56,188 nucleotides of DNA from an uncultured Eubacteriales bacterium (GTDB taxonomy: Bacteria; Bacillota; Clostridia; Christensenellales; Aristaeellaceae). Every line of letters starts with the position of its first letter. The first letter of the stretch is position 1. The position numbers and the translations under genes are program-made. The DNA is taken from assembly GCA_902793325.1 (NCBI GenBank), contig CADBCY010000016.1, forward strand, positions 1 to 56,188, in the 5' to 3' direction. Below, in pieces: positions 1 through 13,167 of this stretch. The notes below the pieces were generated by a model, which saw only the letters and a program-made list of their open reading frames with translations, did no database searches and was not told the DNA's origin.

Positions 1-90
1 GCAGATGGCAACCTTACGGATGAGTTCATCGAAAACCTTATGCCCTGGAACGAGGCCGTCATGGCTGAGTGTAAACGCGGCTATATTTGA
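1..90 (+). CDS. Transposase, C-terminal 29 codons (probable IS66 TnpC)
   Basis: This open frame enters from outside the window and ends with TGA at 88-90. The last residues read LMPWNEAVMAECKRGYI. The LMPW-type ending followed directly by the terminal inverted repeat resembles the C-terminal element of IS66 TnpC transposases of Firmicutes. Only 29 residues are visible, so the family call rests on this short ending plus the inverted repeat; the catalytic DDE core is not in view. Confidence 0.5.
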   Translation, partial: ADGNLTDEFIENLMPWNEAVMAECKRGYI

Positions 91-97
91 CGCTTAC
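1..97 (+). mobile_element. IS66-family insertion sequence, right end only
   Basis: The stretch ends in GACGCTTAC (89-97), the reverse complement of GTAAGCGTC; GTAAGCG is the usual outer end of IS66-family inverted repeats. The transposase reading frame stops at 88-90, overlapping that end, which is the normal layout. The element begins outside the window. IS66 elements make 8-bp target duplications, so 98-105 (GATGGACC) is the predicted copy on this side; the other copy cannot be seen. Confidence 0.6.
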
Positions 98-107
98 GAT
101 GGACCAT
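98..107 (-). pseudogene. Start of a gene interrupted by the IS66-type element
   Basis: On the minus strand an ATG (107-105) sits seven bases after a perfect AGGAGG (120-115) and behind a good sigma-A promoter (171-143). The gene reads Met-Val-His-Arg and then runs into the insertion-sequence end at 97; in the fused sequence a stop follows within five codons. Before either insertion the order would have been tRNA-Ser, terminator, promoter, this gene. The rest of the gene, beyond the insertion sequence, is outside the window and its product cannot be named. Confidence 0.55.
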
Positions 108-142
108 GGTAATACCTCCTGATTGTCCGATTTATCGGGAGG

Positions 143-171
143 ATTATACCATAACCGCACCCGCTATACAA
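143..171 (-). promoter_or_regulatory. Sigma-A promoter of the IS-interrupted gene
   Basis: Minus strand: -35 TTGTAT (171-166), 17-bp spacer, consensus -10 TATAAT (148-143). The leader that follows carries the small dyad CCGAT-AA-ATCGG (about 127-138), a possible operator or hairpin, and then the AGGAGG ribosome-binding site at 120-115. Confidence 0.7.
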
Positions 172-175
172 CAAG

Positions 176-213
176 AAAACCTCTCTTGCCTTGGTAGACA
201 AAAGAGGTTTTTT
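176..213 (-). terminator. Native terminator of tRNA-Ser, now separated from it
   Basis: Hairpin AAAACCTCT (176-184) / AGAGGTTTT (203-211) flanked by A and T runs, so it can work in both directions. On the minus strand it lies directly behind the left copy of the tRNA 3' end (215-238). It is therefore most likely the original tRNA-Ser terminator, moved 12.9 kb away by integration of the element. Confidence 0.65.
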
Positions 214-214
214 G

Positions 215-238
215 TTGGCGGAGAAGGAGGGATTCGAA
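215..238. repeat. att repeat, left end of the integrative element
   Basis: 24-bp sequence beginning TTGGCGGAGAAG, identical to 13074-13097 at the 3' end of tRNA-Ser. It is a duplicated tRNA 3' end (acceptor stem side and part of the T arm) without the rest of the tRNA, as left behind by tyrosine integrases. Confidence 0.85.
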
Positions 239-420
239 TTTTAAGATTTAGTTATTCTTTGTACTAATTGCACACATTATCGCATAACATATTAGTGCAT
301 ATTATACCAATTTCAGGTGCCCGATGCAACGCCGACCAACCTCGATAAATCGTATTTGGGGTACGATTTGGGGTATGAATCGTGGTGAATATCCTGTGAA
401 TCCTGTTCCAGATTACTCCC
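239..420. other. Left-end non-coding region of the element with TTTGGGGTA repeats
   Basis: No convincing gene. TTTGGGGTA occurs twice, at 355-363 and 367-375, 12 bp apart, and a related GTGGGGTAC lies at 13009-13017 just inside the other end. Matching short repeats just inside both ends are what arm-type integrase binding sites look like. Binding is inferred, not shown. An open frame over 264-524 has no family resemblance and overlaps the toxin-like gene, so it is not called. Confidence 0.45.
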
Positions 421-912
421 TTACGGATTCTCACTCGCCTGTTTGAGCGCCATTGCCTTGACAGTTTCATCCACATAGAAGCCGTTTTTGCACAGATCTT
501 CAATGAGTGATGCGATTTCCTCAACCAGCCCCATCCTCTTTGCTCTCAAAAGCACGCCCAGCGTTCCTGTCACATGAAGCCCCAGGAACTTGGCTGTCTT
601 CTTGGCGGCATTGTCATCGATGATCAACAAGTCAGCGGTCGGCGGCTCCTGGGCAAGTATCATCACCTCGACCTCTCCATCGTGCAGCTTGGCCCGATAC
701 ATTTGCTTCTGGGAGTTGTCTGAAATCTGTTTAACCTCAATCCAGTCCGGGCGCTGTTTGATCTGGCGGCAGGCCGAATCGTCCTTTTCCGTCACCTCGT
801 CAAAGACCGCTTGAGGGATCACGATTCTGCCATATACCTTCTGGAGCAAGTCCAGTCTGCCTATGTTGCACAGCGCGATCAGCGGTGTGGAGTTGACGAT
901 CACTCTAAGCAT
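421..912 (-). CDS. DUF3368 PIN-like protein, probable toxin partner
   Basis: 163 residues. The start VIVNSTPLIALCNIGRLDLL and the middle LHDGEVEVMILAQE...LLIIDDNAAKK fit DUF3368, a PIN-like nuclease fold often paired with UPF0175 proteins. The acidic residues expected for metal binding are visible in the DGEVE segment and the IIDD segment. The gene overlaps the upstream UPF0175 gene by 8 bp, so the two are translationally coupled. By family context it is a candidate toxin or RNase of an addiction pair that would stabilise the element. Toxicity is inferred; many such pairs are untested. Confidence 0.75.
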   Translation of the reverse strand: MLRVIVNSTPLIALCNIGRLDLLQKVYGRIVIPQAVFDEVTEKDDSACRQIKQRPDWIEVKQISDNSQKQMYRAKLHDGEVEVMILAQEPPTADLLIIDDNAAKKTAKFLGLHVTGTLGVLLRAKRMGLVEEIASLIEDLCKNGFYVDETVKAMALKQASENP

Positions 913-1168
913 TCTTCATTTCCTCCAAAAACTCCGCCTCATCATCGAAGTGGAATATGGAGACGTGATTCTCGCCCAGATATTTGATAAAGTCTTCTTC
1001 CGTCATACCCGCGATCTGTGCGCAATACCCTATGGAAACGCCATTCTGTGTATAATAACCCAACGCTATCGCCCGCTTGGCAAAGGACAGCGCTTGTTCC
1101 TTCGTCATCCGCGTATCGTAAAGCACCGCATCCGGTATCTTTATCGCCAGTTCACACACAGTTTCCAC
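905..1168 (-). CDS. UPF0175 family protein, probable antitoxin partner
   Basis: 87 residues with the UPF0175 pattern: an N-terminal strand (CELAIKIPDAVL), then TRMTKEQALSFAKRAIALGYY and a small helix-turn-helix-like part, GVSIGYCAQIAGMTEEDFIKYL. These proteins usually sit just upstream of DUF3368 genes, as here. The start is uncertain: GTG at 1168 gives a full-length protein but partly overlaps the only Shine-Dalgarno-like string (GGGAGG). A TACAAT box at about 1196-1191 may be its -10. A terminator separates it from the Bro-N gene upstream, so the pair is probably its own transcription unit. Confidence 0.7.
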   Translation of the reverse strand: METVCELAIKIPDAVLYDTRMTKEQALSFAKRAIALGYYTQNGVSIGYCAQIAGMTEEDFIKYLGENHVSIFHFDDEAEFLEEMKNA

Positions 1169-1230
1169 CTCCCATTGCAGCCAACGTTTTCTACAATTGT
1201 ATCCGGCCTTCGTCTACAGAATACCACATG

Positions 1231-1256
1231 AAAGCGGGGAATGCAAGATTCCCGCA
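1231..1256 (-). terminator. Terminator of the res-mod-OLD-BroN operon
   Basis: Minus strand GCGGGAAT-loop-ATTCCCCGC (about 1255-1234) followed by TTTC, only a few bases after the stop codon of the Bro-N gene. The T run is short, so efficiency may be moderate. Confidence 0.55.
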
Positions 1257-1258
1257 CG

Positions 1259-2122
1259 CTATTCATCATCCTTTTCAGTCCTGTCCGCCATGTCATCAAT
1301 GAGATTGGTCACAACTGAATTGAGCTTCGCGGCATTTTTTGAAGTGATGACCGGCTGCCCTGTTCTGGCCTCGATCTCTTTGCGGGCATTCCCAGCAATT
1401 CCCCCGCCCTCGCGGGCAACTGATTGATTCTGTGTCAGTCCCTGTGGGTTCTGGGTTCGGGTCAGCTCTGTCGTGGTGGCCTCAGCCAGCATGTTCAGGG
1501 CAAGCTCAAGCGTGCTCATGTTGTCGCGGAGGTTTTCTTTCTTGAGTCCCTTCAGATCCTTATATCGCCGCGTCGTCATGCCGGACCTGGCCTTCGTGAC
1601 TTCGTCGGTCAGTATGGCATATTCCCGGCCTTCCTGGACGCCGTGCGCCTTCCACTCGTCCGTCAATTCCTTTCGGGCACGAATGGTCTGGAGCCTCTGA
1701 TTGATCCACTCCGGCGAATAACCCAGGCGGGCATAGGTCTCCAGAGCGCGGTCGATGGTCAGCTCCGGGTCGATGGTCTCGTCGATGCGCTCGCGTCCCA
1801 CCTCCGCCAGCCACATCTTGAAAGGCTCCGCTTTGGGTGACGGAATGGACTGGATCAGCCGGAGAAGCTGCTCCGTCGTGGCGACGTCGGTAGCCCTCTG
1901 CTTTCCATCGTGCGCGCGCATTTTCAAAGCGTGACAATTTGTCACGGTTTGATTGCCCTCTTCCCTGAGACGCTGCTTCAACTTGCGCCAATAAGCGTTC
2001 GGATCTTTGCTCTCAGTCAGGGCCCGAACCACATCCATGAAGGAGAAATACCATTCCTCATTCTCATTGTCCCATGCCGTTCGGATGGGCTGATCTTCAA
2101 ATAGCTGGAGTGTACTGTTCAT
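1259..2122 (-). CDS. Bro-N / DinD-like protein
   Basis: 287 residues. Residues 1-105 resemble the Bro-N domain of phage antirepressors: WYFSFMDVVRALTES...YWRKLKQRLREEG, then QRATDVATTEQLLRLIQSIPS and FKMWLAEVGRERIDE. The C-terminal part (ILTDEVTKARSGMTTRRYKDLKG...NARKEIEARTGQPVITSKN) matches the conserved tail of DinD-type DNA-damage-inducible proteins. E. coli DinD inhibits RecA filament activity; whether this protein does so is unknown. It starts 9 bp after the OLD gene, with AGAGG overlapping the OLD stop, so it is the last gene of the res-mod-OLD operon. Inference: a DNA-binding or damage-sensing accessory of the defence module. Confidence 0.75.
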   Translation of the reverse strand: MNSTLQLFEDQPIRTAWDNENEEWYFSFMDVVRALTESKDPNAYWRKLKQRLREEGNQTVTNCHALKMRAHDGKQRATDVATTEQLLRLIQSIPSPKAEPFKMWLAEVGRERIDETIDPELTIDRALETYARLGYSPEWINQRLQTIRARKELTDEWKAHGVQEGREYAILTDEVTKARSGMTTRRYKDLKGLKKENLRDNMSTLELALNMLAEATTTELTRTQNPQGLTQNQSVAREGGGIAGNARKEIEARTGQPVITSKNAAKLNSVVTNLIDDMADRTEKDDE

Positions 2123-2131
2123 ATTCGGCCT

Positions 2132-3820
2132 CTATAAATCTATTCCAAGAATAAAGCTACGTATTTCCAAATAAGCCAGATCATCGAAATCAGGGTAAGA
2201 TTCAAGAACCTCATTTACCCAACGAGGGCCGTGATTTCCAATAGTTTTTACAAAGCATTCCAATTCTCCGACAGGTACGAGATGAATGCCATTATCCTTT
2301 AATATCGTGTTCAATCGGTCAAACGCTGCTCTTGAATCACCTGCTGGGATCGCAGAAATCCCCATTTTCTTAATGTTTTCCCATTTTGATGTAGTCTTAA
2401 GCGTTTCCTGTAGCTTTTTCAATTCGTCCTTACTAAGTATAGTGTCCGTTGACTCATCAAGAATGCTTATGATGGACGATTTAGCATCCTCACGCTTAAT
2501 TGTATCCCTGGGGCTATGCAAATGCGAAACGAATATCTTATAATCATCCTTGATTTCATCCCATGCGATTCCGAAGGATTCAACAATGGCTCTAAATACT
2601 CCTTCATCGTTTAGTACATCCATGTCTGGAATAAGTTTCACATCAACATTCAATGAGCGAAGAGCGGTAACAACCTTGGCCATACGCTGTTTGCCGCCAC
2701 AGTGAATAAACAGCGTTTCGGAGTATTTACCCTGCTTCTGTTTAAGATGATTATCGATAATCGAATACATCTGACAATCCGAATCGCTCTCACAGAGTAC
2801 CACGTTTTTATGAAAGAGGCTTGACAGAATATTCGAGTGCCTGAGTAGCGGATCACCCCACACTTTTACTATATCCGCATTGCTCAAAATAGAAAAATAA
2901 TTAATGTCATCTTCTCTGGTAATACGTATTATTTTCAATCGATCCGGGCATGTCTCGAATAATCCTTTAATGATTTCATCGCTATGCGTAGAAATGAAAG
3001 CTTGCTGTTGTCCAGAAAGGGTTTCACCGATTATTTGTCCCAGGATTCTTGCCTGCGGCGGATGCAAAAATGCTTCAGGTTCATCAATAAGGTATGTACA
3101 ATAATGCTTCATCATTAGGTATAGTATTATTCCAGTAAAGCTTTTTATCCCGTCACCCTGATTGTGGACTTGTTTATACTGAGCAAGTATATTAGCATAA
3201 GCCTCTTGACGTTCTTGCTCATCGCCAAATTCTTGATTAAGCTTTACAGGCTCACCGATACATAGAGGTATTGAACCTCCAAATTGTGTATTTGGTATTA
3301 GCTCCGACCCAAAGGCCTTTTTAAAGCATTTTGATAGCCATTTTCTATAAGTTGGTTCAAATGCAGCATATTGAATTGGATGATCTCTTTTTGAATCTCT
3401 GGGAATATTATTAGGGGGAAAACAAGCTAATAATCGTTGCGAAGCATTGAGATTAGCAACGAATAAGTTCCTATATCTTCCGTATACATCTTCCCTCTGA
3501 AAAGCCATATCTGATCCTTTGTCCACAGCTATGTCAAGGTCAAGAAATGAGTACGATAAATAGGTTCTGTCACGGTTCCTTTTAGCAACTTTTTCTAATA
3601 GGGAAAGCACACTTCCCTCATGCTTCAGTATTTCCACATCTCTTATAACAATTCCATTAGGCTTTCTTTCACACAATCTGTATATATCATCCAAAGACTG
3701 GCTTTTTCCAGCGTTGTTGGGGCCAACAAAAAGAATTATATCGTTTTGAGTAATATCAACTGTCTGCCCGTTATTGAATACTATCTTTGAGATGTATCCT
3801 CCTACGTTTGCATTGCTCAT
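2132..3820 (-). CDS. OLD-family ATPase with TOPRIM nuclease domain
   Basis: 562 residues. ABC-type ATPase parts: Walker A GPNNAGKS (33-40), a signature-like GDGIKSFTG (222-230), Walker B LIDEPEAFLHP (244-254) and H-loop STHSD (277-281). A TOPRIM nuclease follows: VVLCESDSD (340-348, catalytic Glu 344) and DMD (399-401). This is the OLD architecture, known from the P2 phage exclusion protein and from Gabija GajA. No UvrD-like helicase is adjacent, so it is not a standard Gabija pair. GGAGG lies well placed before the ATG. The gene follows mod by 38 bp and precedes the Bro-N gene by 9 bp. It is visibly AT-richer than res and than most of mod, suggesting separate acquisition. Confidence 0.88.
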   Translation of the reverse strand: MSNANVGGYISKIVFNNGQTVDITQNDIILFVGPNNAGKSQSLDDIYRLCERKPNGIVIRDVEILKHEGSVLSLLEKVAKRNRDRTYLSYSFLDLDIAVDKGSDMAFQREDVYGRYRNLFVANLNASQRLLACFPPNNIPRDSKRDHPIQYAAFEPTYRKWLSKCFKKAFGSELIPNTQFGGSIPLCIGEPVKLNQEFGDEQERQEAYANILAQYKQVHNQGDGIKSFTGIILYLMMKHYCTYLIDEPEAFLHPPQARILGQIIGETLSGQQQAFISTHSDEIIKGLFETCPDRLKIIRITREDDINYFSILSNADIVKVWGDPLLRHSNILSSLFHKNVVLCESDSDCQMYSIIDNHLKQKQGKYSETLFIHCGGKQRMAKVVTALRSLNVDVKLIPDMDVLNDEGVFRAIVESFGIAWDEIKDDYKIFVSHLHSPRDTIKREDAKSSIISILDESTDTILSKDELKKLQETLKTTSKWENIKKMGISAIPAGDSRAAFDRLNTILKDNGIHLVPVGELECFVKTIGNHGPRWVNEVLESYPDFDDLAYLEIRSFILGIDL

Positions 3821-3858
3821 GGATAGTCCTCCTCATGTTTACGGTTCTCATAAGTGCA

Positions 3859-5877
3859 TCATGCTTTCCACACCGTCTCATCGCCACATATATTGCGGAT
3901 TTTTAGGCGGAAGGGTGGTTTGTCGGTGCGGATTTTGCCGTCCCAGAATTGTTTGGTTTTGGTGCCATTGAGGATGACGTAGCCGTTCTTATCGATTTTG
4001 ATTTCGGCGTCGGAGTGCCACTCGCCCTCGGCGGCGGTACAATCGAGGCTGAGGAACTCGATCAGCTCCAGGCCCTCCTCGCTGATCTCGATGGGCTTAT
4101 AGGGCTTTTTCGCGGTGGCGTTCAGGGCGGCGGTGCGGTTGAACTCGTCGATTTTGCGGAGGACGCGGTCGCTGACAAAGGTGTCGATGGCGACGGCCCA
4201 GCCGCCGAGGAGATCATCGTGGGCTTCCTCCACATGGAAGGTGGCGTAATCGCCGATGACCACATCGTCCAGGATGGCCTTGAGGTCGCGCAGTTCGATC
4301 TCCACCGTGGTGCTGTCATCGTCTTTGATGAATTGGCGGATTTCCGTCTCGTCGGTGATGTCGATATAATAGACGATCACCTTTTTGACGGAGCCGTCCA
4401 GGTCGGGGATGGCCTGGTGGATGATTCGGTTCATCATCACCACATCCAGCAGCTTGGAGGAACTGTCCATGAGGTTCGGAACGTATACCGGCACCATGCC
4501 CAGCCTGCTGTCGGAGATCGCGCCTTCCCAAAAGGCATCCAAAGCGTCCTCATTCTTCAAGCCGGGAATGAGGGATTTGATCTTATCCATGGTCTGGACG
4601 GGATTCCGGTAAAGCTGGACGCCGTCCTTTATCTCATATACATCAAACGTGGCTTTATCGGTAATAAGTCTATCTCTAACAGTTTGAATAGAATTCAAAC
4701 CAATATCACCATGTACAAATCTTCGGCCAAGTCGGTTTGCCACTGCCGCTGTTACACCGCTACCACCAAAGAAGTCTGCAACTATCATTTGGGGATTAGA
4801 TGACGTATTTATGATTCGTTCCAACAGTGCTTCCGGTTTCTGTGTTGTATAATTCATTGCTTCGGCTGAGCGACCAGCAACATAAGCAATATCATTCCAA
4901 TTATCATTAAGAGGGACTCCAGGCAACTCATCCATAAACACTATACGGCATCGCTTTATAGGTTTCCCATTTTTGCCAAGTCTGATCCGTCCGTGACTAT
5001 TTGGAACCTCGGTCTGCGGAGCATTCCACAATTGTTCAAATTTCTCCGGAGATGTTCTCCACCTTGCCACCGTTCCGTGAAAATCATATGCTGCCATTTT
5101 TCCCTGTGGATCAAGCATATTCTCAAATTTATAATAACGACCGGACGGTGCCTGTGTCCACTCATCTGCGATATAATCTTCCGTATACGGTGTGTACTGT
5201 ATATTGAATGGATATACATCGGATATCGAATAGAAGAAAATACTATCTTTCACCCTGCTATAGTTTTGAACGCTATCATTATGAGAGGCCGTCCTGACCC
5301 ATGTGATCTCATTCCTGAAATTATCCTCGCCGAACACTTCATCCAGAAGTATTTTGACATAGTGACCGATATGCCAATCCAAGTGTACATATATCGAAGC
5401 CTCGGCGCTCATGACGCTCTTGATCGCCATGAGATTCTCATACATCCAGTTCAGATATTTCTCCTTATCCCAAACGTCGCCGTACATCTTCTCCTCGAAG
5501 GATTTGAGGTCCTCGAAATCGAGTTCCTGCTCGGCCTGGGCGATGGCCTCGGCTACCTTGGGGTTCCGGCGGATAAACACCTTTTTCGCATAGTCCGCGC
5601 CACTGGCGAAGGGCGGGTCTATGTAGACCAGGTCTACCTGGATGCCCTGATCTTTCAGCCAGGCGCAGGCGGAGACGCACTCGCCGCGAATCACCATATT
5701 GCCGTCGGCATTGTCGCCCACGGTTTCCACCTTTTCCATCTCATACAGGGGCATGCCGCGCTGCAAGACCATGGAAGCATCGTCAGCGCCCTTATAGCGG
5801 AGGATTCTGTTGAAATTGCCCAGCACCGCCTGTCCCTCAATTGGTTCCGGTATAAATGGCACGTATTTGATCGGCAT
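3859..5877 (-). CDS. mod: Type III DNA adenine methyltransferase (Mod)
   Basis: 672 residues. Catalytic motif IV DPPF is at 87-90 and the SAM-binding motif FFGGSG at 369-374, followed by [11 protein letters not shown]. This order (IV before I, with the target-recognition domain between) is the beta-class arrangement of type III Mod subunits, which methylate adenine at N6 and define specificity for the complex. GGAGGT precedes the ATG. The gene follows res by 18 bp, whereas classical type III operons run mod-res. The DNA for about residues 180-410 (roughly 5340-4640) is AT-rich against GC-rich flanks, which fits exchange of the recognition domain. Confidence 0.9.
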
Positions 5878-5895
5878 AAAGACAACCTCCGCTGT

Positions 5896-8736
5896 TTATT
5901 TGAAGAAGGTAACGATCTTTTGATGTACGGCATTGATGCGCTCTGTGTCTGACAGCGTATCCTCAAGATAGAGGTACTCGAAGCGTTCATAGCCAAACGC
6001 CGCATTGTTGCCGCGCAGGAATTCCGTTTCCATGAAGGCGCGCTTATCCTTGAAGGCGGGATCGTTTGCATAGATGCCGCCCTTGGTCTCTACGATAATC
6101 GCCTTGTGGATTTTACCCTCCCGGCGCTGAATAATCAGGAAGTCGGGCGTATACATGCCCACATACTGCCAGCCTCGTTCCGCATGCTTAAAGCAGCAGA
6201 TTTTGAATTCCGTCATGGCCCGGTCGCCGTTGTAGTACACCTCCAGGCCGAGGGATTCCATCTCTTGCAGCTTCAACGCTTCATCCAGGAATTTCTTTTC
6301 CAAATCACTGTCCGTTTTATATGGCAGGTAGTGGAAGGAGCGATCCTTTCCAATCGGCAAGCCGATCCTTTGATAAAGGTATCGCAAGAACTCTCTGTCA
6401 CTCTGCCTCTTTGCCAAATCAAGCTGTTGCTCAATATCCTTGCTGACCTTCAGCTTTCCGGCATCGTCCTGGACAATTCGCTCTACCATATCCTGAGAGG
6501 GGTAATATTTCTCCAGTTGCGTGGTCTGGATGGTAGGCGTGAAGTTGGCAATGTTCAGCAGGCTGGCCTCGGCGGGTATGATCTCCTCCGTCGTGTTGAA
6601 GCTTCGCTTCGCGCTGAACGCCTTTCGGACATTGGCTTCGACAGCGGCCTGATCGATCCTGGAGCTGTAATAGCGAACACCGTCGCGTTCGTAGGTCACG
6701 TTCATATATACTTTATACAAAGCATCGCGGCAGGCGCCCAATTCCTGCGGGGTAATCATGCCGAAGCTGCCCTTGACGATGCGATGCAGCCACGTCGGGA
6801 AGGTCGCGTGTACCGTGCCATATTCCGCATCATCGACGCTGATCCCGGATATCTTCATCGTGAAATCAGTGGTTTTGATGATGGGGGCAAGCGTCCGCGC
6901 ATCGTCGGCAGCCTTCGGGATTGCCCTCTGAGGATCAGCTGCCTCAACGATGAGGGTTTCGTAATTGACCTTCAACTGGTAGAAGTCCACCTTGGGCAGT
7001 TTCAGGTAAGCCGTCCGGTCATACCGATTCAGGGTGAATGTCGGATTGTCTGCCTCGGCAAATTCCTTCAGGGAGATATGGTGCGCCTGTTGCAGCTGGG
7101 CGTTGAGCTTCTCGGCGTTGCTGTCGTTCAGATAGATCAGGGCCGTTTCGGGCGCGTCCTTATCCACCTGGCGCAGGCATCGGCACGAGGTTTGCAGCAC
7201 CATGTTTTTCGGGCAATCGCCCTCCTGGGAGAGGATGATGCCGGTGAGGCTGCGGCAATCCCAGCCCTCCTTGCCGATTTGAACCAAAAGAACGATGCGA
7301 ATGCGAGAGAAGGGTTTGTCCAGGGAATCAAATTGCAGCTGGCTATCCGTTGGCTGTGGATAGCGCTTGTTCCCCTTATGGAACCTGAGTATGGCATCAG
7401 AACCATAGCCATACTCGGCGGCGATGGAGGACACGAGAGGATAGACCATCTCCTCCAGCTTCTCTATCGTCCCGCAGTAGATGCCCAGCTTGGCGACGGT
7501 GCCGTCCTGGTAAACGGTGTCCTTATAGGTATCCAGGAATTCCCGCACACCCTTTTCGATGATGACCGGGCTTTCCGCCACTTCCGCGATCTTCACCCGA
7601 GGCCGTTTCAGGAAGTTGCCGATGCCGTCGATCAGCGGATAGTAGTATACAATGTTCGTGATCTCCGCTGTGGCCACCGACAGCTTGTCCGCAACGGTGA
7701 TCTTTTCCGCTTTCTCCAAATAGGGCGTGCCGGAGAAGCCGATTACGGCATTGATGCGCTGGCCCTGGCTCCATCGCGTAACCACAGCACGCAGCTTGAT
7801 GTCATTGCTGACGGCGTGGTGGACTTCGTCTATGAATATGGAAAGGGCGGGCAGTTTGCCGATGAGATTACGCAGTTCGTGGGGATCGTCCTCGTCATCA
7901 AACATGCCTATCTGCCAATCCCTGTCTGGCAGGCGATCCAGGATCACCTTCTCGGCATTTGTCACGGCCACCAGCCCAAACAGGTCAGATAAAGGCTGAT
8001 GGCTGGCGATCTTCTGGACGTTGGGATTCTTGGTTCGGTTGGATTTATTGGAGGATTTCGCCTGATCCAGCACCTCGAAGATGATGACACGCTTGAGCTC
8101 GCTGGCGGCAGGCTCCGGGATCACCCATGAGGGATCAAAGTTCTGGATGGTTTTCAGACTGGGTACCACCGAGGATTTCAGGCCGGACGGCGCAAAGATA
8201 ATGAAGTTGTGGGCAAACGCCGGGTTGGCCGGTTCATTCATGGCGAAATACAGATCAATGTATATAAAGGCCGCCATGAGATAGGTCTTCCCGGCACCCA
8301 TGGGAAGGCTGAACAGATAGTCGGTGTAGGATAGCTTATAGAAGGCATCGTGGAAAAACTGGTGGTAGTCTATGGATTCAGGCGCTGCCTTGATCTGTTT
8401 TTCCAGCTTTTCCGATACCTGTTCACCACGATCATTCCGGAGCGTGGCGTATTCATACAGCGCAGCGGCAGCCGGGTTGCTCTTGAGGATGTCGCGCACC
8501 TTGGCAGAGAGTTCGGCTTCATCAAGATTCAGGGTATTAAAAGCGCCTCGGTTGAAAAGGGTGGCGAGAGGCTGGGCTCCACAGGCGATCTTGAGGAAAA
8601 GATAGGTCTTTATGGCTTCGACCTGGGCATCGCGCATCTGGCCCTTTTTCTCGATGTACGCAATCAATTCCTTGACGGTGCATTCATCGGTTTGTAGCCA
8701 TAAATCCCGCTTGGCCTCGATCATCTTGTAGAACAT
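5896..8736 (-). CDS. res: Type III restriction enzyme subunit (Res), helicase-nuclease
   Basis: 946 residues. Superfamily 2 helicase motifs: Walker A GAGKT (147-151), DEVH (303-306), motif III-like GFSGTP, and a motif VI region KEGWDCRSLTGIILSQ. The C-terminal nuclease reads PDFLII...IVETKG, a PD-ExK core at P864/D865, E883 and K885. Res hydrolyses ATP and cuts DNA only with Mod, usually near two head-to-head unmethylated sites. It is the first gene of the defence operon, with AGAGGG before the ATG and a sigma-A promoter at 8805-8777. All catalytic motifs look intact. Confidence 0.9.
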   Translation of the reverse strand: MFYKMIEAKRDLWLQTDECTVKELIAYIEKKGQMRDAQVEAIKTYLFLKIACGAQPLATLFNRGAFNTLNLDEAELSAKVRDILKSNPAAAALYEYATLRNDRGEQVSEKLEKQIKAAPESIDYHQFFHDAFYKLSYTDYLFSLPMGAGKTYLMAAFIYIDLYFAMNEPANPAFAHNFIIFAPSGLKSSVVPSLKTIQNFDPSWVIPEPAASELKRVIIFEVLDQAKSSNKSNRTKNPNVQKIASHQPLSDLFGLVAVTNAEKVILDRLPDRDWQIGMFDDEDDPHELRNLIGKLPALSIFIDEVHHAVSNDIKLRAVVTRWSQGQRINAVIGFSGTPYLEKAEKITVADKLSVATAEITNIVYYYPLIDGIGNFLKRPRVKIAEVAESPVIIEKGVREFLDTYKDTVYQDGTVAKLGIYCGTIEKLEEMVYPLVSSIAAEYGYGSDAILRFHKGNKRYPQPTDSQLQFDSLDKPFSRIRIVLLVQIGKEGWDCRSLTGIILSQEGDCPKNMVLQTSCRCLRQVDKDAPETALIYLNDSNAEKLNAQLQQAHHISLKEFAEADNPTFTLNRYDRTAYLKLPKVDFYQLKVNYETLIVEAADPQRAIPKAADDARTLAPIIKTTDFTMKISGISVDDAEYGTVHATFPTWLHRIVKGSFGMITPQELGACRDALYKVYMNVTYERDGVRYYSSRIDQAAVEANVRKAFSAKRSFNTTEEIIPAEASLLNIANFTPTIQTTQLEKYYPSQDMVERIVQDDAGKLKVSKDIEQQLDLAKRQSDREFLRYLYQRIGLPIGKDRSFHYLPYKTDSDLEKKFLDEALKLQEMESLGLEVYYNGDRAMTEFKICCFKHAERGWQYVGMYTPDFLIIQRREGKIHKAIIVETKGGIYANDPAFKDKRAFMETEFLRGNNAAFGYERFEYLYLEDTLSDTERINAVHQKIVTFFK

Positions 8737-8776
8737 CCAATTGCCCTCTTATGTACATACTAAAATCTCATAATAC

Positions 8777-8805
8777 ATTATATCATGTTTTTGCCTGAAA
8801 GTAAA
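8777..8805 (-). promoter_or_regulatory. Promoter of the res-mod-OLD-BroN operon
   Basis: Minus strand: -35 TTTACT (8805-8800), 17-bp spacer, perfect -10 TATAAT (8782-8777). The leader to the res ATG is about 35 nt. No further clear promoter is seen between the four genes. Confidence 0.65.
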
Positions 8806-8865
8806 ACAAAAGTATATGCCCATAGCCTTGTCTACTGCGTATGCTTTCCTGATGACGCTATACTT

Positions 8866-9594
8866 CTACTTCGCATTGATGAATCGTGAACAATTCTCAC
8901 AAAGATCCTTACATTCCTGCATCTCGAACAGATCAGGAGAACGGGTGATACCAGCATAAGGAATTCCCTTCCGCTTGCAGATGTCGATAATCTCCTTCCT
9001 TCTATTCGGAGGCATCCGGTTTCCCAGATAGACCTTTGTGATCGGGAAAAACTTCTTCGTGAAGCCACTCTTCCCATGCTCCTGTGGTGGCAACAGCAAA
9101 CGCCACTCGTTCTGATAAAGCCAATCAATGCTTTTCCGAAGCACTCCATTGAGATAAATATCACTGAGGGCTTCCATGCTCAGATTATGATCATAGCTCT
9201 CCAATAGCGCTTGTGTTACAGGATGACGTGCCTTGCAATAAATCACAGGACGGATGTTTTGTAGAATATCCTCGTATTCTTTATCTTCTTTCACAGTGTA
9301 CTCAAGACAAAATCCATTGTGCTCGTTCGCATAGCCACCCCACATGAGTTGGGATGTAGGCGTTGTTGTGAAACAGGCAACTCGGAACATTTGCTGCAAA
9401 TCATTTGAAAACCGATTATATTCCTCTGTCAACACATTCCTCAATGCGATCCCCCAATCGTTCACAGCCATCATCTCACGCAACATTCTATTTGAAAAAA
9501 GAGAGACTTGAAGCTTGACCAATTCTTCATGCCCTTCCGTGAAAAACACACTTTCTATAGTGCCACCGTTTTGAACTGCATTATATATGTGCAT
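8866..9594 (-). CDS. DUF2971 protein, N-terminally truncated
   Basis: 242 residues. The core matches DUF2971: FRVACFTTTPTSQLMWGGYANEHNGFCLEY, then RPVIYCKA, a WLYQNEWRLLL segment and FFPITKVYLGNRM. DUF2971 function is unknown; such genes are frequent on mobile and defence islands. The usual N-terminal part (a YKY...W...FNDPF-like region) is absent and no ribosome-binding site precedes the ATG. Directly upstream the sequence turns into a CHC2-primase remnant on the opposite strand. I infer that the 5' end was lost at that junction and that the protein may not be functional. Confidence 0.65.
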   Translation of the reverse strand: MHIYNAVQNGGTIESVFFTEGHEELVKLQVSLFSNRMLREMMAVNDWGIALRNVLTEEYNRFSNDLQQMFRVACFTTTPTSQLMWGGYANEHNGFCLEYTVKEDKEYEDILQNIRPVIYCKARHPVTQALLESYDHNLSMEALSDIYLNGVLRKSIDWLYQNEWRLLLPPQEHGKSGFTKKFFPITKVYLGNRMPPNRRKEIIDICKRKGIPYAGITRSPDLFEMQECKDLCENCSRFINAK

Positions 9595-9596
9595 GA

Positions 9597-10112
9597 GAAA
9601 AGCATTTGCTGTACCTCGACGTTGATAAGCTCGAAGCGGTGAAGCTCATCGCCAACGACTTTGGTATTCCCATTGAAGACCAGCCACTTTCAAAATCATC
9701 ATCTCCGTCCATAAAAGACAAATCACCGCCCACGCCAGTGCAGCGCCATGAATGGCGCGTTCAGAAGACCCAGCGGCAGTTTGAACAGTGGCGGACACGC
9801 AGCATAGACCTGCTCAACAGTTATTATGCAAACCTGGATGAGCAGGAGCGGGTGTGTATACGGCAGAGGCTGGAAGCCTCGGACCGCAATGTCCTCGACA
9901 GGATCACGGAAAAGAAAGCGATCATCCAATTCTACCTGAACACCCTGCAATCAGGTACACTGGATGATCAGATCGACCTGTATCTCTACGGAAGGGAGGT
10001 CATCACGCGAATTGAACGGCGATTGGAAAAACATCAGCAAGGAGAAGCTGGACAGGCTGTCTGCGGAGATGGTGCCGGTGGACTACGTCCGAGAGCAGCT
10101 GCATCGGAATGA
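9597..10112 (+). pseudogene. CHC2 zinc-finger primase protein, 5' part missing
   Basis: The open frame starts abruptly after a stop at 9594-9596 and reads LYLDVDKLEAVKLIANDFGI. That is the end of a CHC2-type zinc-finger primase domain (normally ...ID.V...F.LD..EAV..L..DFG); the zinc ligands upstream are gone. A linker rich in Ser/Pro and a helical region with QFEQWRTRSIDLLNSYYANL follow. The last part overlaps the next gene. In phage satellites and related islands such a gene sits just upstream of the VapE-like gene and starts replication. Here it is almost certainly dead. Confidence 0.65.
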
Positions 10113-11427
10113 GAAGGGAAAGGTCACGCAGACCATTGAGAACTGCATGCTGGCGGTTCGGGAGGATACTTTCCTGCGCGGACTGGTTCGGCTGAACCTG
10201 CTCAGCTGCCGGATGGTGATCTGCAAGGAAGTTCCCTGGAGACGCAGCGGTGCGGCGCTGACCGACAACGATATGGACAACATCCTCAGCTACATGGCGC
10301 AGAATTATGATCTTCGAAATGACAGCCTGTGCAGGAGGGCGGTCTCCATGGCGGCGAATAACGACAGCTTCCATCCCATCCGGGATTACCTGAACAGCCT
10401 GAAATGGGATGGACAGCAGCGGCTCCGGCACGCCCTGCGCCATTTCCTCGGCGCGCCGGAGGATGAACTGACCTACCTCTGCCTCAAGACCTACATGATG
10501 GGCGCGCTCCAGAGGGTGTTCTGGCCGGGATGCAAGTGTGAGTATGTTTTGACGCTGATCGGTGGGCAGGGCGTTGGCAAATCGACCTTCTTCCGTTTCC
10601 TGGCGATCAAGGACGACTGGTTTACCGACGATTTGGTGGACTTCAAGAGCAGCCGAATCTATGAGAAGATCAACGGGCACTGGATCATAGAGATGCCTGA
10701 GATGCTCGCCATGATGAACGGTAAGCGTGCGGAGGAGACGAAGGCATTTGTCTCCCGGCAGTCCGATGTGTACCGCGATCCCTACGCGGTCTATCCCGCC
10801 GACCGTCCCCGGCAGTGCGTGTTTGGCGCGACCACCAACAGGCAGAAGTGTCTGCCCTTCGACCATACTGGCAACCGCAGATTCCTGCCGGTTACGGTGG
10901 ACCTGGACAACGCGGAGGTGCACATCCTGGAGGATGAAGCGACATCCCGGGAGTACATCAATCAGATGTGGGCGGAAGCCATGGACATCTTCAAACGGAA
11001 GGACTACACCATGGCCTTCCCGCCCGAAGTCACGCGACAGCTCGACCAACTCCGGCAGGAATTCATGCCTGAGGACACCAACGCGGGTCTCATTCAGGCA
11101 TATCTGGATGAATACGAAGGTGACTATGTCTGCACTACCCAGTTGTACCGGGAAGCGCTGAGAAACTTCGGTGAGCCCACTCGCATCGAGAGCAGCGAGA
11201 TCGGCGAAATCATGCGCTACAGCATTCAAGGCTGGAAGGTTGGCCCGCAGCACCGTTTCCCGATCTACGGACAGCAGCGGTCATGGATACGGGATGAGGA
11301 TTGTAAACAAGAACGTAAACGAGACCATCCAAACCCTGAAAAGCAGCTGTCCATGCTGGAGCAGGGCTTTGTCCCGGTCACGGATACTTCGGACGTGCCG
11401 TTCCTGGAGGCGCATGAGCCATCATAA
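9964..11427 (+). CDS. VapE/VirE-type P-loop ATPase, replication protein of the element
   Basis: About 470-487 residues. Walker A reads GGQGVGKSTFF, followed by DDLVDFKSSRIYEKINGHWIIEMPEMLAMMNGKRAEETKAFVSRQSDVYRDPY, the hallmark of the virulence-associated E family. FGATTNR and GNRRFLPV match the sensor region. These proteins act with or in place of primase-helicase in phage satellites. The start is uncertain: ATG 9964 has no clear Shine-Dalgarno, while TTG 10012 lies 12 bp behind GGGAGG and begins MNGDWKNISKEKL. The gene is followed by xis and int on the same strand. Confidence 0.82.
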   Translation: MIRSTCISTEGRSSRELNGDWKNISKEKLDRLSAEMVPVDYVREQLHRNEKGKVTQTIENCMLAVREDTFLRGLVRLNLLSCRMVICKEVPWRRSGAALTDNDMDNILSYMAQNYDLRNDSLCRRAVSMAANNDSFHPIRDYLNSLKWDGQQRLRHALRHFLGAPEDELTYLCLKTYMMGALQRVFWPGCKCEYVLTLIGGQGVGKSTFFRFLAIKDDWFTDDLVDFKSSRIYEKINGHWIIEMPEMLAMMNGKRAEETKAFVSRQSDVYRDPYAVYPADRPRQCVFGATTNRQKCLPFDHTGNRRFLPVTVDLDNAEVHILEDEATSREYINQMWAEAMDIFKRKDYTMAFPPEVTRQLDQLRQEFMPEDTNAGLIQAYLDEYEGDYVCTTQLYREALRNFGEPTRIESSEIGEIMRYSIQGWKVGPQHRFPIYGQQRSWIRDEDCKQERKRDHPNPEKQLSMLEQGFVPVTDTSDVPFLEAHEPS

Positions 11428-11468
11428 TCGAGATCGACCTATGAAAGAAGGAGGATACAAGAATCAAC

Positions 11469-11783
11469 ATGAACAATGAGGATGTTATCCAGCAAATCAC
11501 CGACATCGTTTGCAATCGCTTTGAGGATATGATAAAATCTATGGTGTCGGCGAACCTTGAAAACGGAATAGGATCACAGGATTATTCACCACTTGTAGAA
11601 GCGATCACTGTCGATGAACTGGCCAGCCTGCTAAAGGTTTCCAAACCGGTCGCCTATGAGCTTGCCAACAGCAAAGGCTTCCCATCCTTCCGGATCGGGA
11701 AGAACATTCGCGTCGACAAGCGTGGGCTTTCCGATTGGATGTCGAAACAGACGGCGGTTCGGAAAGGAACACAGCAGACATGA
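11469..11783 (+). CDS. Excisionase-type helix-turn-helix protein
   Basis: 104 residues. An N-terminal helical tail precedes a MerR/excisionase-like HTH: ITVDELASLLKVSKPVAYELANSKGFPSFRIGKNIRVDKRGLSDWM (about 46-92). Such proteins bend att-site DNA and drive excision. AAGGAGG lies 12 bp before the ATG. Its stop TGA overlaps the integrase ATG (ATGA at 11780-11783), so the two are translationally coupled. Confidence 0.82.
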   Translation: MNNEDVIQQITDIVCNRFEDMIKSMVSANLENGIGSQDYSPLVEAITVDELASLLKVSKPVAYELANSKGFPSFRIGKNIRVDKRGLSDWMSKQTAVRKGTQQT

Positions 11784-12988
11784 CGAAGCATACAAATGGT
11801 GGATCCAATAAGAAATCCCGGAAGAACACGAGAACCTCGAACAATACGGGCTCCATCCGTCAGCGTCCCAACGGGCTCTGGGAGGCCCGGGTCGTGATCG
11901 GAACTGACCCCGCGACCGGCAAGCAGGTGCGCAAGTCGGTCTATGGGGAGAAGGAGAAGGACGTCCGGCGCAAGGTAACGGAGATTCAGAACGCGCTGGA
12001 TAACGGTACTTATCAGGAGCCCAGCAGGATGAAGGTCAGCGAGTGGCTGGAGGAATGGTTGAACACGTTTTGCGCGCACAAGCTGAAGCCTTATACGATC
12101 GTGGCCTATTGCGGGATCATCAAGAATCATCTGAACCCCGCCATCGGCGCAATGAAGCTCCAGGAGGTTCGCGGGCTGCACATTCAGCGAATCTATAACC
12201 GGATGATTGCCGACGGCGCATCCCCCAAGACCGTCAAGAACATCGGAGCCGTGGCGCACAAGGCCTTCAATGTGGCGATCAAGCAGGGATTGATCTCAGT
12301 CAATCCCTGCGACGCCGCAGAGTTTCCAAAGATGGAGCACCACGAGATCAAGCCCCTCACGGACGCGGAGATTCCCATCTTCCTCAACGCCATCAAGGGC
12401 GACCCCATGGAAAACGCCTACGCGCTCTGCCTGTTCGCAGGGCTGCGCGAAGGCGAGTGCCTGGGATTGTCGTGGAATCAGGTGGACTTCGAAAAGCAGA
12501 CGCTGGTCATCAGCCAGCAGCTCCAGCGAGGCAAGACCAAGGGCGGTCAGTACTACATCGCCTCGTCCACGAAGTCCGGCAGGTCCCGCACGATCAAGCC
12601 TCCGCCGATCGCATTTGAATACCTCAAGAGCGAGAAGCGGCGACAGCTCGTCAACCAGTTTGCAGCCGGTACGGAATGGAATAATGAACACAACCTCGTA
12701 TTTACTACGGACAAGGGTAAGAACTGCGCCGTGTCCACCTTCTACAAGGGCTTCAAGCGACTGTTGAAGGAAATGGGGCGGCCGGACGCTCGCCCGCACG
12801 ACCTGCGCCATACCGCCGCGACTGTCGCCATTGCCAGCGGAGCGGACATCAAATCCGTGCAAAGCCTGCTGGGGCACGCCACGGCAAGCTTCACGCTGAA
12901 CGTCTACGCGCACACTTCGGAAAAGATGATGGAAGACACAGCCGCCCGCGTTCAGAACTATTACGATCAGTTGAAGACTACGTTATGA
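11780..12988 (+). CDS. int: Tyrosine integrase of the tRNA-Ser element
   Basis: 402 residues from ATG 11780. An AP2-like arm-binding N-terminus (TGSIRQRPNGLWEARVVIG) is followed by a core-binding domain and a catalytic domain. Catalytic set: R223 (GLREGE), K265 (STKSGRSR), H340xxR343 (HDLRH), H366 (LGHA) and the nucleophile Y376 (NVYAH). All are present, so the enzyme should be active. A further upstream in-frame start exists, but ATG 11780 overlaps the xis stop and is preferred. The gene points at tRNA-Ser and ends 86 bp before the right att repeat. Confidence 0.93.
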   Translation: MTKHTNGGSNKKSRKNTRTSNNTGSIRQRPNGLWEARVVIGTDPATGKQVRKSVYGEKEKDVRRKVTEIQNALDNGTYQEPSRMKVSEWLEEWLNTFCAHKLKPYTIVAYCGIIKNHLNPAIGAMKLQEVRGLHIQRIYNRMIADGASPKTVKNIGAVAHKAFNVAIKQGLISVNPCDAAEFPKMEHHEIKPLTDAEIPIFLNAIKGDPMENAYALCLFAGLREGECLGLSWNQVDFEKQTLVISQQLQRGKTKGGQYYIASSTKSGRSRTIKPPPIAFEYLKSEKRRQLVNQFAAGTEWNNEHNLVFTTDKGKNCAVSTFYKGFKRLLKEMGRPDARPHDLRHTAATVAIASGADIKSVQSLLGHATASFTLNVYAHTSEKMMEDTAARVQNYYDQLKTTL

Positions 12989-13036
12989 GCATTTAAATGG
13001 AGTATACTGTGGGGTACGGACATTGTTAAGATTGTT

Positions 13037-13071
13037 AAATGCCTTGAAAACTCAGGGTTTTCAAGGCATTT
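13037..13071. terminator. Terminator at the right end of the element
   Basis: Perfect 15-bp stem AAATGCCTTGAAAAC (13037-13051) / GTTTTCAAGGCATTT (13057-13071). It lies between int and the tRNA 3' end. It ends int transcription rightwards and, being symmetrical with A and T runs, probably also replaces the lost native terminator of tRNA-Ser leftwards. Confidence 0.75.
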
Positions 13072-13073
13072 GA

Positions 13074-13097
13074 TTGGCGGAGAAGGAGGGATTCGAA
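13074..13097. repeat. att repeat, right end, inside tRNA-Ser
   Basis: Second copy of the 24-bp direct repeat found at 215-238. It covers the encoded CCA, the discriminator base, the 3' acceptor strand and part of the T arm, so the integrated element rebuilds a complete tRNA. Confidence 0.85.
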
Positions 13098-13167
13098 CCC
13101 TCGAGACGCTTTTGACGCCTACGCGATTTCCAGTCGCGCGCCCTCGACCAAGCTAGGCGACTTCTCC
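13075..13167 (-). tRNA. tRNA-Ser (GGA)
   Basis: Minus strand. Acceptor GGAGAAG (13167-13161) pairs with CTTCTCC (13085-13079); discriminator G and encoded CCA occupy 13078-13075. The anticodon loop is CTGGAAA within the CGCGA/TCGCG stem, giving anticodon GGA. A long variable arm, typical of class II tRNA-Ser, and the T loop GGTTCGAATCC are visible. Its 3' end is the integration site of the element. Confidence 0.95.

Follow-up and report, generated by a model that had tools for sequence, protein, structure and literature searches.

The subject of this analysis is a four-gene operon in contig CADBCY010000016.1 of an uncultured Eubacteriales bacterium (assembly GCA_902793325.1), whose positions 1 to 56,188 are referred to below as the window. 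The operon consists of four intact open reading frames (ORFs), all on the minus strand, in the order res-mod-OLD-Bro-N with intergenic gaps of 18, 38 and 9 bp, and the ORF calls bear out the tight operon that had been proposed in an initial annotation of this DNA. Its parts are as follows.

5896-8736, minus strand: Res, 946 amino acids, with DEAH-type helicase motifs and a C-terminal PD...ETK nuclease motif
3859-5877, minus strand: Mod, 672 amino acids, a beta-class N6/N4 DNA methyltransferase
2132-3820, minus strand: OLD-family ATPase-TOPRIM protein, 562 amino acids (AAA_15/AAA_21 and OLD-like_TOPRIM)
1259-2122, minus strand: Bro-N protein, 287 amino acids (Pfam Bro-N, PADLOC candidate PDC-S13, predicted DdrC-like fold)
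8805-8777, minus strand: promoter-like site TTTACT-17-TATAAT with extended TG, 40 bp 5' of the res start codon

The promoter had been placed at this same site, and its extended -10 element and its distance from the start codon fit that assignment. A scan of positions 1-11000 returned 20 such sites where 13.7 (standard deviation 3.1) were expected, and we therefore argue for the promoter from its position rather than from its score. Control by LexA was considered and rejected, with 23 pattern matches in the window versus 33 expected and none at the promoter. The terminator previously assigned to about position 1255 was not recovered, as it is absent from the scan's list of terminator-like sites, the stretch folds no better than its shuffles (z -0.30) and a 6-bp stem there is followed merely by TTTC. 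After the Bro-N gene the next terminator-like site on the minus strand is at 211-176, past a UPF0175/PIN gene pair that is described below.

Res, Mod and the position behind mod

Judged by their motifs, Res and Mod are a divergent type III-like restriction-modification pair. Res carries PMGAGKT at 145, DEVHH at 303, SGTPY at 335, QTSCRCLRQ at 515 and PD...ETK at 863-886, and the helicase and nuclease motifs are kept in all four Res proteins that were aligned. Its Pfam ResIII match is weak (2.8e-5), its RE_endonuc match lies below threshold and the PADLOC REase_III models give no match at E 0.1; as a canonical comparison, the Res of the viral locus L094 matches REase_III at 1.1e-289. Sequence searches of the PDB with Res returned unrelated matches alone (E >= 0.7) and, in a second search, none, and the AlphaFold model of Res, with a mean predicted local distance difference test score (pLDDT) of 48.6, was not used. 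Mod matches Pfam N6_N4_Mtase at 1.8e-37, with DPPF at 87 preceding FFGGSG at 369, and in PADLOC its best model is MTase_II (1.5e-56), the best MTase_III model scoring 7.3e-42.

We define the close clade by a Res at least 45% identical to that of the window. Its members are uncommon: relatives of Res were found in 1 of 200 genomes of the order (at 1e-40) and 1 of 177 of the class (1e-80), the window's own genome both times, and at 1e-20 in 3 of 299 genomes of the phylum, namely the window's, G727 and the distant G621. Mod has relatives in 1 of 120 genomes of the family (the window's) and in 1 of 8 of the order of G727 (G727 itself). Further close relatives come from phage and viral sets: PV036460.1, MT839692.1 and three contigs of IMG/VR. 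When OLD, Res or Mod was used alone to scan IMG/VR, no relatives were confirmed, and a Mod-motif scan of the same set returned just the two contigs already known.

In all four close relatives with readable DNA behind mod, three of them independent, the position directly 3' of mod, which we call the slot, is filled by defence genes on the same strand; two further close relatives (L112 and L121) end before it. G727 has res-DUF2513-mod-GajA-GajB (GajA 3.2e-105, GajB 8.9e-94), that is, Gabija in the slot. Anaerosphaera phage PV036460.1 has res-mod-HamA-HamB (HamA 2.5e-129, HamB E 0), or Hachiman, with gaps of 2, 14 and -35 bp, and the same arrangement is found on the IMG/VR contig 3300038316_000243, a sibling given its 97% identical Res. 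On the IMG/VR contig 3300048050_000114 res and mod are followed by a TIR gene (1.4e-19) and a gene for a 278-amino-acid protein, and then by a Panacea-domain gene. The same res-mod pair is therefore accompanied by differing defence modules in the position that OLD takes in the window: the architecture recurs but the gene set does not. The initial annotation was correct in placing res before mod, which it took to be a reversal of the usual order; since res precedes mod in all five close-clade loci showing both genes (L121 included), the clade as a rule has this order, which is no oddity of the window.

Two further details concern the borders of mod. The DUF2513 gene of G727 (L103 14734-15129) is wedged between res and mod and overlaps mod by one base. 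The idea that the slot border carries an exchange sequence common to these loci was considered and rejected, as the 11-mers that recur among the mod-slot pairs are just AATATATGTGG, A-rich runs and 11-mers shared by the sibling phages, and AATATATGTGG falls within the end of mod in the window and in both phages.

The check that the initial annotation had put forward, co-occurrence of OLD, Bro-N and res/mod, was made over 126 sequences (125 loci and the window, overlapping cuts included, with relatives taken at E 1e-20), and its outcome is negative. Relatives of OLD and Bro-N occur together only in the window and its cuts, and elsewhere in this set neither is found on one sequence with relatives of the window's Mod or Res. 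A conserved four-gene system was rejected, there being no recurrence in the unrelated genomes searched; as far as the searches reach, the res-mod-OLD-Bro-N combination is not a system of its own. In agreement with the initial annotation, we found no name for the combination and no description of the arrangement in the literature, with a coverage mostly without preprints and subscription papers.

OLD and Bro-N proteins beyond the window

The OLD protein carries the Walker A motif GPNNAGKS at 33, LIDEPE at 244, STHS at 277, VVLCESDSDC at 340 and DMD at 399-401. Its relatives were found, with the window's genome counted, in 3 of 200 genomes of the order (1e-20), 2 of 391 of the class (1e-60) and 1 of 398 of the phylum (1e-40), and a scan of genome contigs with two short patterns gave 3 loci, including the contig G072 that had already been found. 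None was confirmed in IMG/VR and none was found in phage records. Beyond the window there are four close OLD loci, two of which, in metagenome-assembled genomes (MAGs), read hsdR-x-hsdM-hsdS-OLD, with an OLD 56-57% identical to that of the window beginning 17-18 bp after hsdS. These two share 95% identity in hsdR and 78% in OLD and so represent a single lineage. OLD thus appears, from these gene orders, to be able to attach to restriction operons. An HEC-07-like protein is encoded between hsdR and hsdM in both of these OLD-ending type I operons (L009 14373-16049 and L068 5440-7116).

More distant OLD relatives are found in six plasmid records at 28.8-32.2% identity. Among the distant proteins viewed (28-33%; five of the six plasmid records and one genome) no restriction gene was annotated or matched in the stretch seen, the sixth record being a near-identical Lactococcus plasmid. 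Two known contexts for OLD-type proteins were rejected for the window: Gabija, as there is no GajB and the ORFs of at least 400 amino acids in 1-13100 are the named genes and two antisense frames (these frames unscanned), and a retron OLD (class 3), as no reverse transcriptase is present among the scanned element proteins.

The last gene of the operon had been labelled Bro-N/DinD. The first half of this label stands, given the Bro-N family match, and the second does not, as the NCBIfam DinD model NF008573 scores 27.2 bits against a cut-off of 242. The protein matches the PADLOC candidate PDC-S13 over its full length (2.4e-135, residues 2-274), for which we found no tested function in the literature. 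A structure model built from 22 homologues has a mean pLDDT of 82, and in a Foldseek search of the PDB ranks 1-6 are all DdrC of Deinococcus radiodurans, with E values of 1.5e-7 to 1.1e-6 but template modelling (TM) scores of 0.28-0.41 on the query. With a sequence profile of the Bro-N protein, too, the top three matches are DdrC, at E 0.039-0.057. DdrC is a DNA-damage response protein of Deinococcus that binds and stabilises DNA breaks, and the predicted DdrC-like fold lends support to the DNA-damage theme suggested earlier for this gene.

Relatives of the Bro-N protein are found in 27 of 200 genomes of the order (1e-20, the window's included), at 25 IMG/VR loci and in 9 plasmid and 4 phage records. 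Of 31 other matching places in the order, 15 were examined together with as much as 9 kb of flanking DNA on either side; 14 of the matches are nearly full length and one is partial, and none of the 15 loci has a relative of the window's Res, Mod or OLD. The 26 immediately neighbouring proteins at 14 of these loci gave no PADLOC methyltransferase, restriction or specificity match at 1e-10; the remaining locus, L057, was left out, its Bro-N gene being obscured by an antisense frame. Single neighbours matched PDC-S26, PDC-S69, a mad3/AriA-type ATPase, mad8, a DUF1848 model, pAgo and HEAT, and several of the Bro-N relatives have a same-strand neighbour within 30 bp, so that they are not all solitary genes.

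At least 5 of the 25 IMG/VR loci adjoin defence genes. L094 reads as a canonical type III operon, with a Mod-like end, a gene that we read as AlbA_2-like, Res (REase_III, 1.1e-289) and Bro-N 2 bp behind; L074 has Bro-N 81 bp or more behind Septu PtuA/PtuB; in L096 it lies near HsdM, in pieces at the contig end; and in the siblings L084 and L085 it lies between an EcoRI-type methylase and a GmrSD/HNH gene. Neighbours were profile-scanned at L074, L084, L094 and L096. By BLAST only, L090 adjoins and L087 lies near methylase-like phage genes. In L080 an hsdR-like gene is found at a distance of about 4.5 kb. At L073 an antisense frame masked the Bro-N frame itself, and the neighbours gave no match. 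Seven of the nine plasmid records were viewed, and in one of these, L042 (8479-11252, Arcobacter cloacae pACLO), a type I-B CRISPR operon has, between its cas4 and cas1 genes, a gene for a Bro-N/PDC-S13-type protein that is possibly linked to spacer acquisition or end handling. Overall, Bro-N relatives are mostly found away from restriction genes, and some join other defence operons.

The element that carries the operon

An integrated element of about 12.9 kb carries the operon and the UPF0175/PIN pair as cargo. We base this on the attachment (att) repeats of the tRNA-Ser 3' end, on the integrase, Xis-like and VapE-like genes and on a step in G+C content, 51% between the att repeats versus 66% to the right. 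The remaining features are listed here.

176-211, minus strand (read 211-176): terminator-like hairpin immediately beyond attL; past the cargo, it is the first such site in the scan's list
215-238: attL, 24-bp direct repeat TTGGCGGAGAAGGAGGGATTCGAA, a copy of the tRNA-Ser 3' end
421-912, minus strand: PIN/DUF3368 protein, probable toxin (family match)
905-1168, minus strand: UPF0175 protein, probable antitoxin (family match)
8866-9594, minus strand: DUF2971 protein, PADLOC candidate PDC-S31, 129 bp upstream of res
9964-11427, plus strand: VapE-like protein, an element gene (family match)
11469-11783, plus strand: HTH_17 excisionase-like protein (family match)
11735-12988, plus strand: tyrosine integrase (first in-frame start codon used; the true start may be later)
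13074-13097: attR, where the 24-bp repeat recurs, at the tRNA-Ser 3' end
13075-13167, minus strand: tRNA-Ser(gga), the integration target (tRNA call)

Originally, the hairpin at 211-176 probably served the tRNA gene as its terminator. The UPF0175 and PIN(DUF3368) genes, a probable toxin-antitoxin pair (421-1168), come next after the operon, share its strand and lie inside the same possible transcript. The DUF2971 protein has no match in the loci of close res-mod relatives.

Reading of the architecture and known systems

Starting from what can be read off the sequence, namely an operon with intact motifs, an element with att repeats and differing modules behind related res-mod pairs, we interpret the locus as a mobile defence island in which a res-mod core is followed, directly 3' of mod, by a slot for an independent second defence module, here OLD with the Bro-N/DdrC-like protein, and assign this reading a probability of roughly 55%. 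On family grounds, Mod would mark host DNA and the helicase-nuclease Res would cut unmarked incoming DNA; OLD would form a second line, acting if restriction leaves broken or aberrant DNA or if a phage blocks repair or restriction, and the Bro-N protein would bind or hold DNA breaks, helping to sense or process them. The order would then be to cut first and to act on broken DNA afterwards. Hachiman is reported to be activated by DNA damage (PMC12278908) and Gabija is proposed to target DNA ends lacking RecBCD (PMC12407980), and both fit such an order on account of these reported responses. P2 Old is reported to be activated by RecBC inhibition (PMC13261556; P2 Old and RecBC are treated also in PMC10568477), and the toxicity of one E. 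coli OLD protein is described as independent of RecBC (PMC13261556). The OLD of the window shares the family of these proteins, though not necessarily their trigger, and a DdrC-like partner, as modelled, would fit a break-linked role. A bolder form of this interpretation, in which the slot is dedicated to systems that sense DNA integrity, cuts by Res or their failure trigger OLD with Bro-N, Gabija or Hachiman, restriction serves as the sensor of a two-step circuit and Bro-N marks the breaks, strikes us as unlikely. The TIR and Zorya modules show no obvious fit to a break-response order, and the common denominator may be just another defence system in the same gene row.

The alternative that survives best is plain clustering, in which independent systems are gathered side by side on mobile elements, and on one strand by chance, with no functional link. 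That the module is the next gene after mod, on the same strand, in all four close relatives speaks against chance, as do the short distances from mod (38, 14 and 7 bp) or hsdS (17-18 bp) to the gene that follows, which suggest co-transcription. Nevertheless, a number of observations weigh against our interpretation, several of them in favour of clustering. The loci are few, with three independent close relatives, and the exact four-gene set was seen once. Gaps after mod of 122 bp in G727 and 175 bp in L113 leave room for a separate promoter. Gabija, Hachiman and Zorya have been described as systems of their own, so that adjacency need not mean cooperation, and the island of the window holds further cargo in the DUF2971 gene and the UPF0175/PIN pair. 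OLD relatives also stand apart from restriction genes: in L072 one (58% identical) lies alone in a mobile region, and in a Dethiobacter alkaliphilus MAG (L069 3164-9669) OLD is in pieces (54-64%), broken by apparent insertion sequences, with no relative of the tested restriction proteins within 15 kb. That the two type I-OLD loci proved to be siblings further weakens our interpretation and strengthens clustering. There is no LexA-type box near the res promoter, and the low TM-scores to DdrC (0.28-0.41), which could reflect an inter-domain hinge or the DdrC dimer, together with the weak sequence match (E 0.04), count against a break-linked Bro-N protein.

The sister clade adds to these points. 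Its Res and Mod are 25-28% and 31-38% identical to those of the window, and the operons of these Res proteins include a methyltransferase and in most cases a UvrD helicase. Just 1 of the 11 loci viewed is followed directly, on the same strand, by a recognised system, namely ZorA, ZorB and ZorE (Zorya II) 29 bp behind the UvrD-methyltransferase-Res operon of Spirosoma linguale pSLIN01 (L107 7866-15352). On contig C1 of the source genome an AbiGii-like gene (5e-13) lies 605 bp behind Res. No module was recognised on the same strand at the other nine loci, of which L122 and L125 end 832 and 297 bp behind Res and L123 and L124 have an unscanned next gene; in Tunicatimonas (L108) the next gene, on the opposite strand, matches type I methyltransferase/specificity models. 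A filled slot therefore marks the close clade in a small sample and not all relatives, and we regard clustering as a serious competitor, although it falls short of even odds. The locus on contig C1 (L106 5960-16591) encodes a UvrD with a PD-(D/E)XK domain, a 266-amino-acid protein with no Pfam or PADLOC match, a methyltransferase, the Res-like protein and the AbiGii-like protein.

A second alternative concerns the Bro-N protein, which might act on transcription, as a regulator or antirepressor for the operon or the element, and not as a DNA-break factor. It weakly matches PHROGs regulator and anti-repressor families (1.2e-5 to 0.003; the best PHROG is without known function), and many of its IMG/VR relatives lie near repressor-like genes or integrases. 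However, the six best fold matches are all to DdrC, a DNA-damage response protein, and the gene is the last of its operon; we regard a regulatory role as less likely than not. Least probable by far is a dedicated system of four co-evolved components, each needing the others, along the lines of the initial annotation, for despite the tight spacing of 18, 38 and 9 bp the OLD and Bro-N relatives meet, among the 126 sequences, only in the window, neither accompanies Mod or Res relatives elsewhere in that set, and res-mod pairs with other modules.

Should a res-mod core with a slot for a second defence module be the correct description, a one-off gene combination would become a testable rule, with one restriction core and interchangeable second systems in one operon position, and there would be an explanation for the attachment of OLD to type I as well as type III-like operons. 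The widespread PDC-S13/Bro-N proteins would gain a first functional hint (DdrC-like, DNA breaks), and it would become possible to test directly whether Gabija, Hachiman or OLD is switched on by restriction cuts.

Among known systems the core most resembles type III restriction-modification of the EcoP15I kind, with a beta-class Mod that has DPPF before an FxGxG-type motif and is similar to EcoP15I Mod (4zcf, E 5.7e-10), and a Res with superfamily 2 helicase motifs and a C-terminal PD...ExK motif; it differs in its res-mod order and in a Res that has no PADLOC REase_III match and matches Pfam ResIII weakly. The UvrD-methyltransferase-Res systems of plasmids and phages (TnsA-N annotated) have Mod and Res homologous to those of the window, and a second such locus is found on contig C1, but most have UvrD in front (not L105), mod before res and mostly no module recognised behind. 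The window's OLD, an ABC ATPase with TOPRIM of 562 amino acids whose best solved relative is 6p74, is like the class 1 proteins (P2 Old, T. scotoductus OLD), although that class is defined as single genes in PMC10568477 and the gene here stands 38 bp after mod and 9 bp before Bro-N. With Gabija (class 2 OLD and UvrD) it has in common an OLD-type nuclease, and the Gabija pair occupies the same slot in G727, but the window is without GajB. The Bro-N protein matches PDC-S13 over its full length and has a predicted fold like that of DdrC, from which it differs in sequence (15-19% identity). Defences embedded in other defence systems are reportedly the subject of a preprint. Recurrently acquired nuclease-protease pairs (PMC12799240) are likewise defence modules repeatedly acquired by unrelated immune systems, with the difference that there one pair joins many systems and here one core takes several. 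Modular defence operons are an already known kind, of which the arrangement in the window is a variant, and it is the modularity that is the interesting part.

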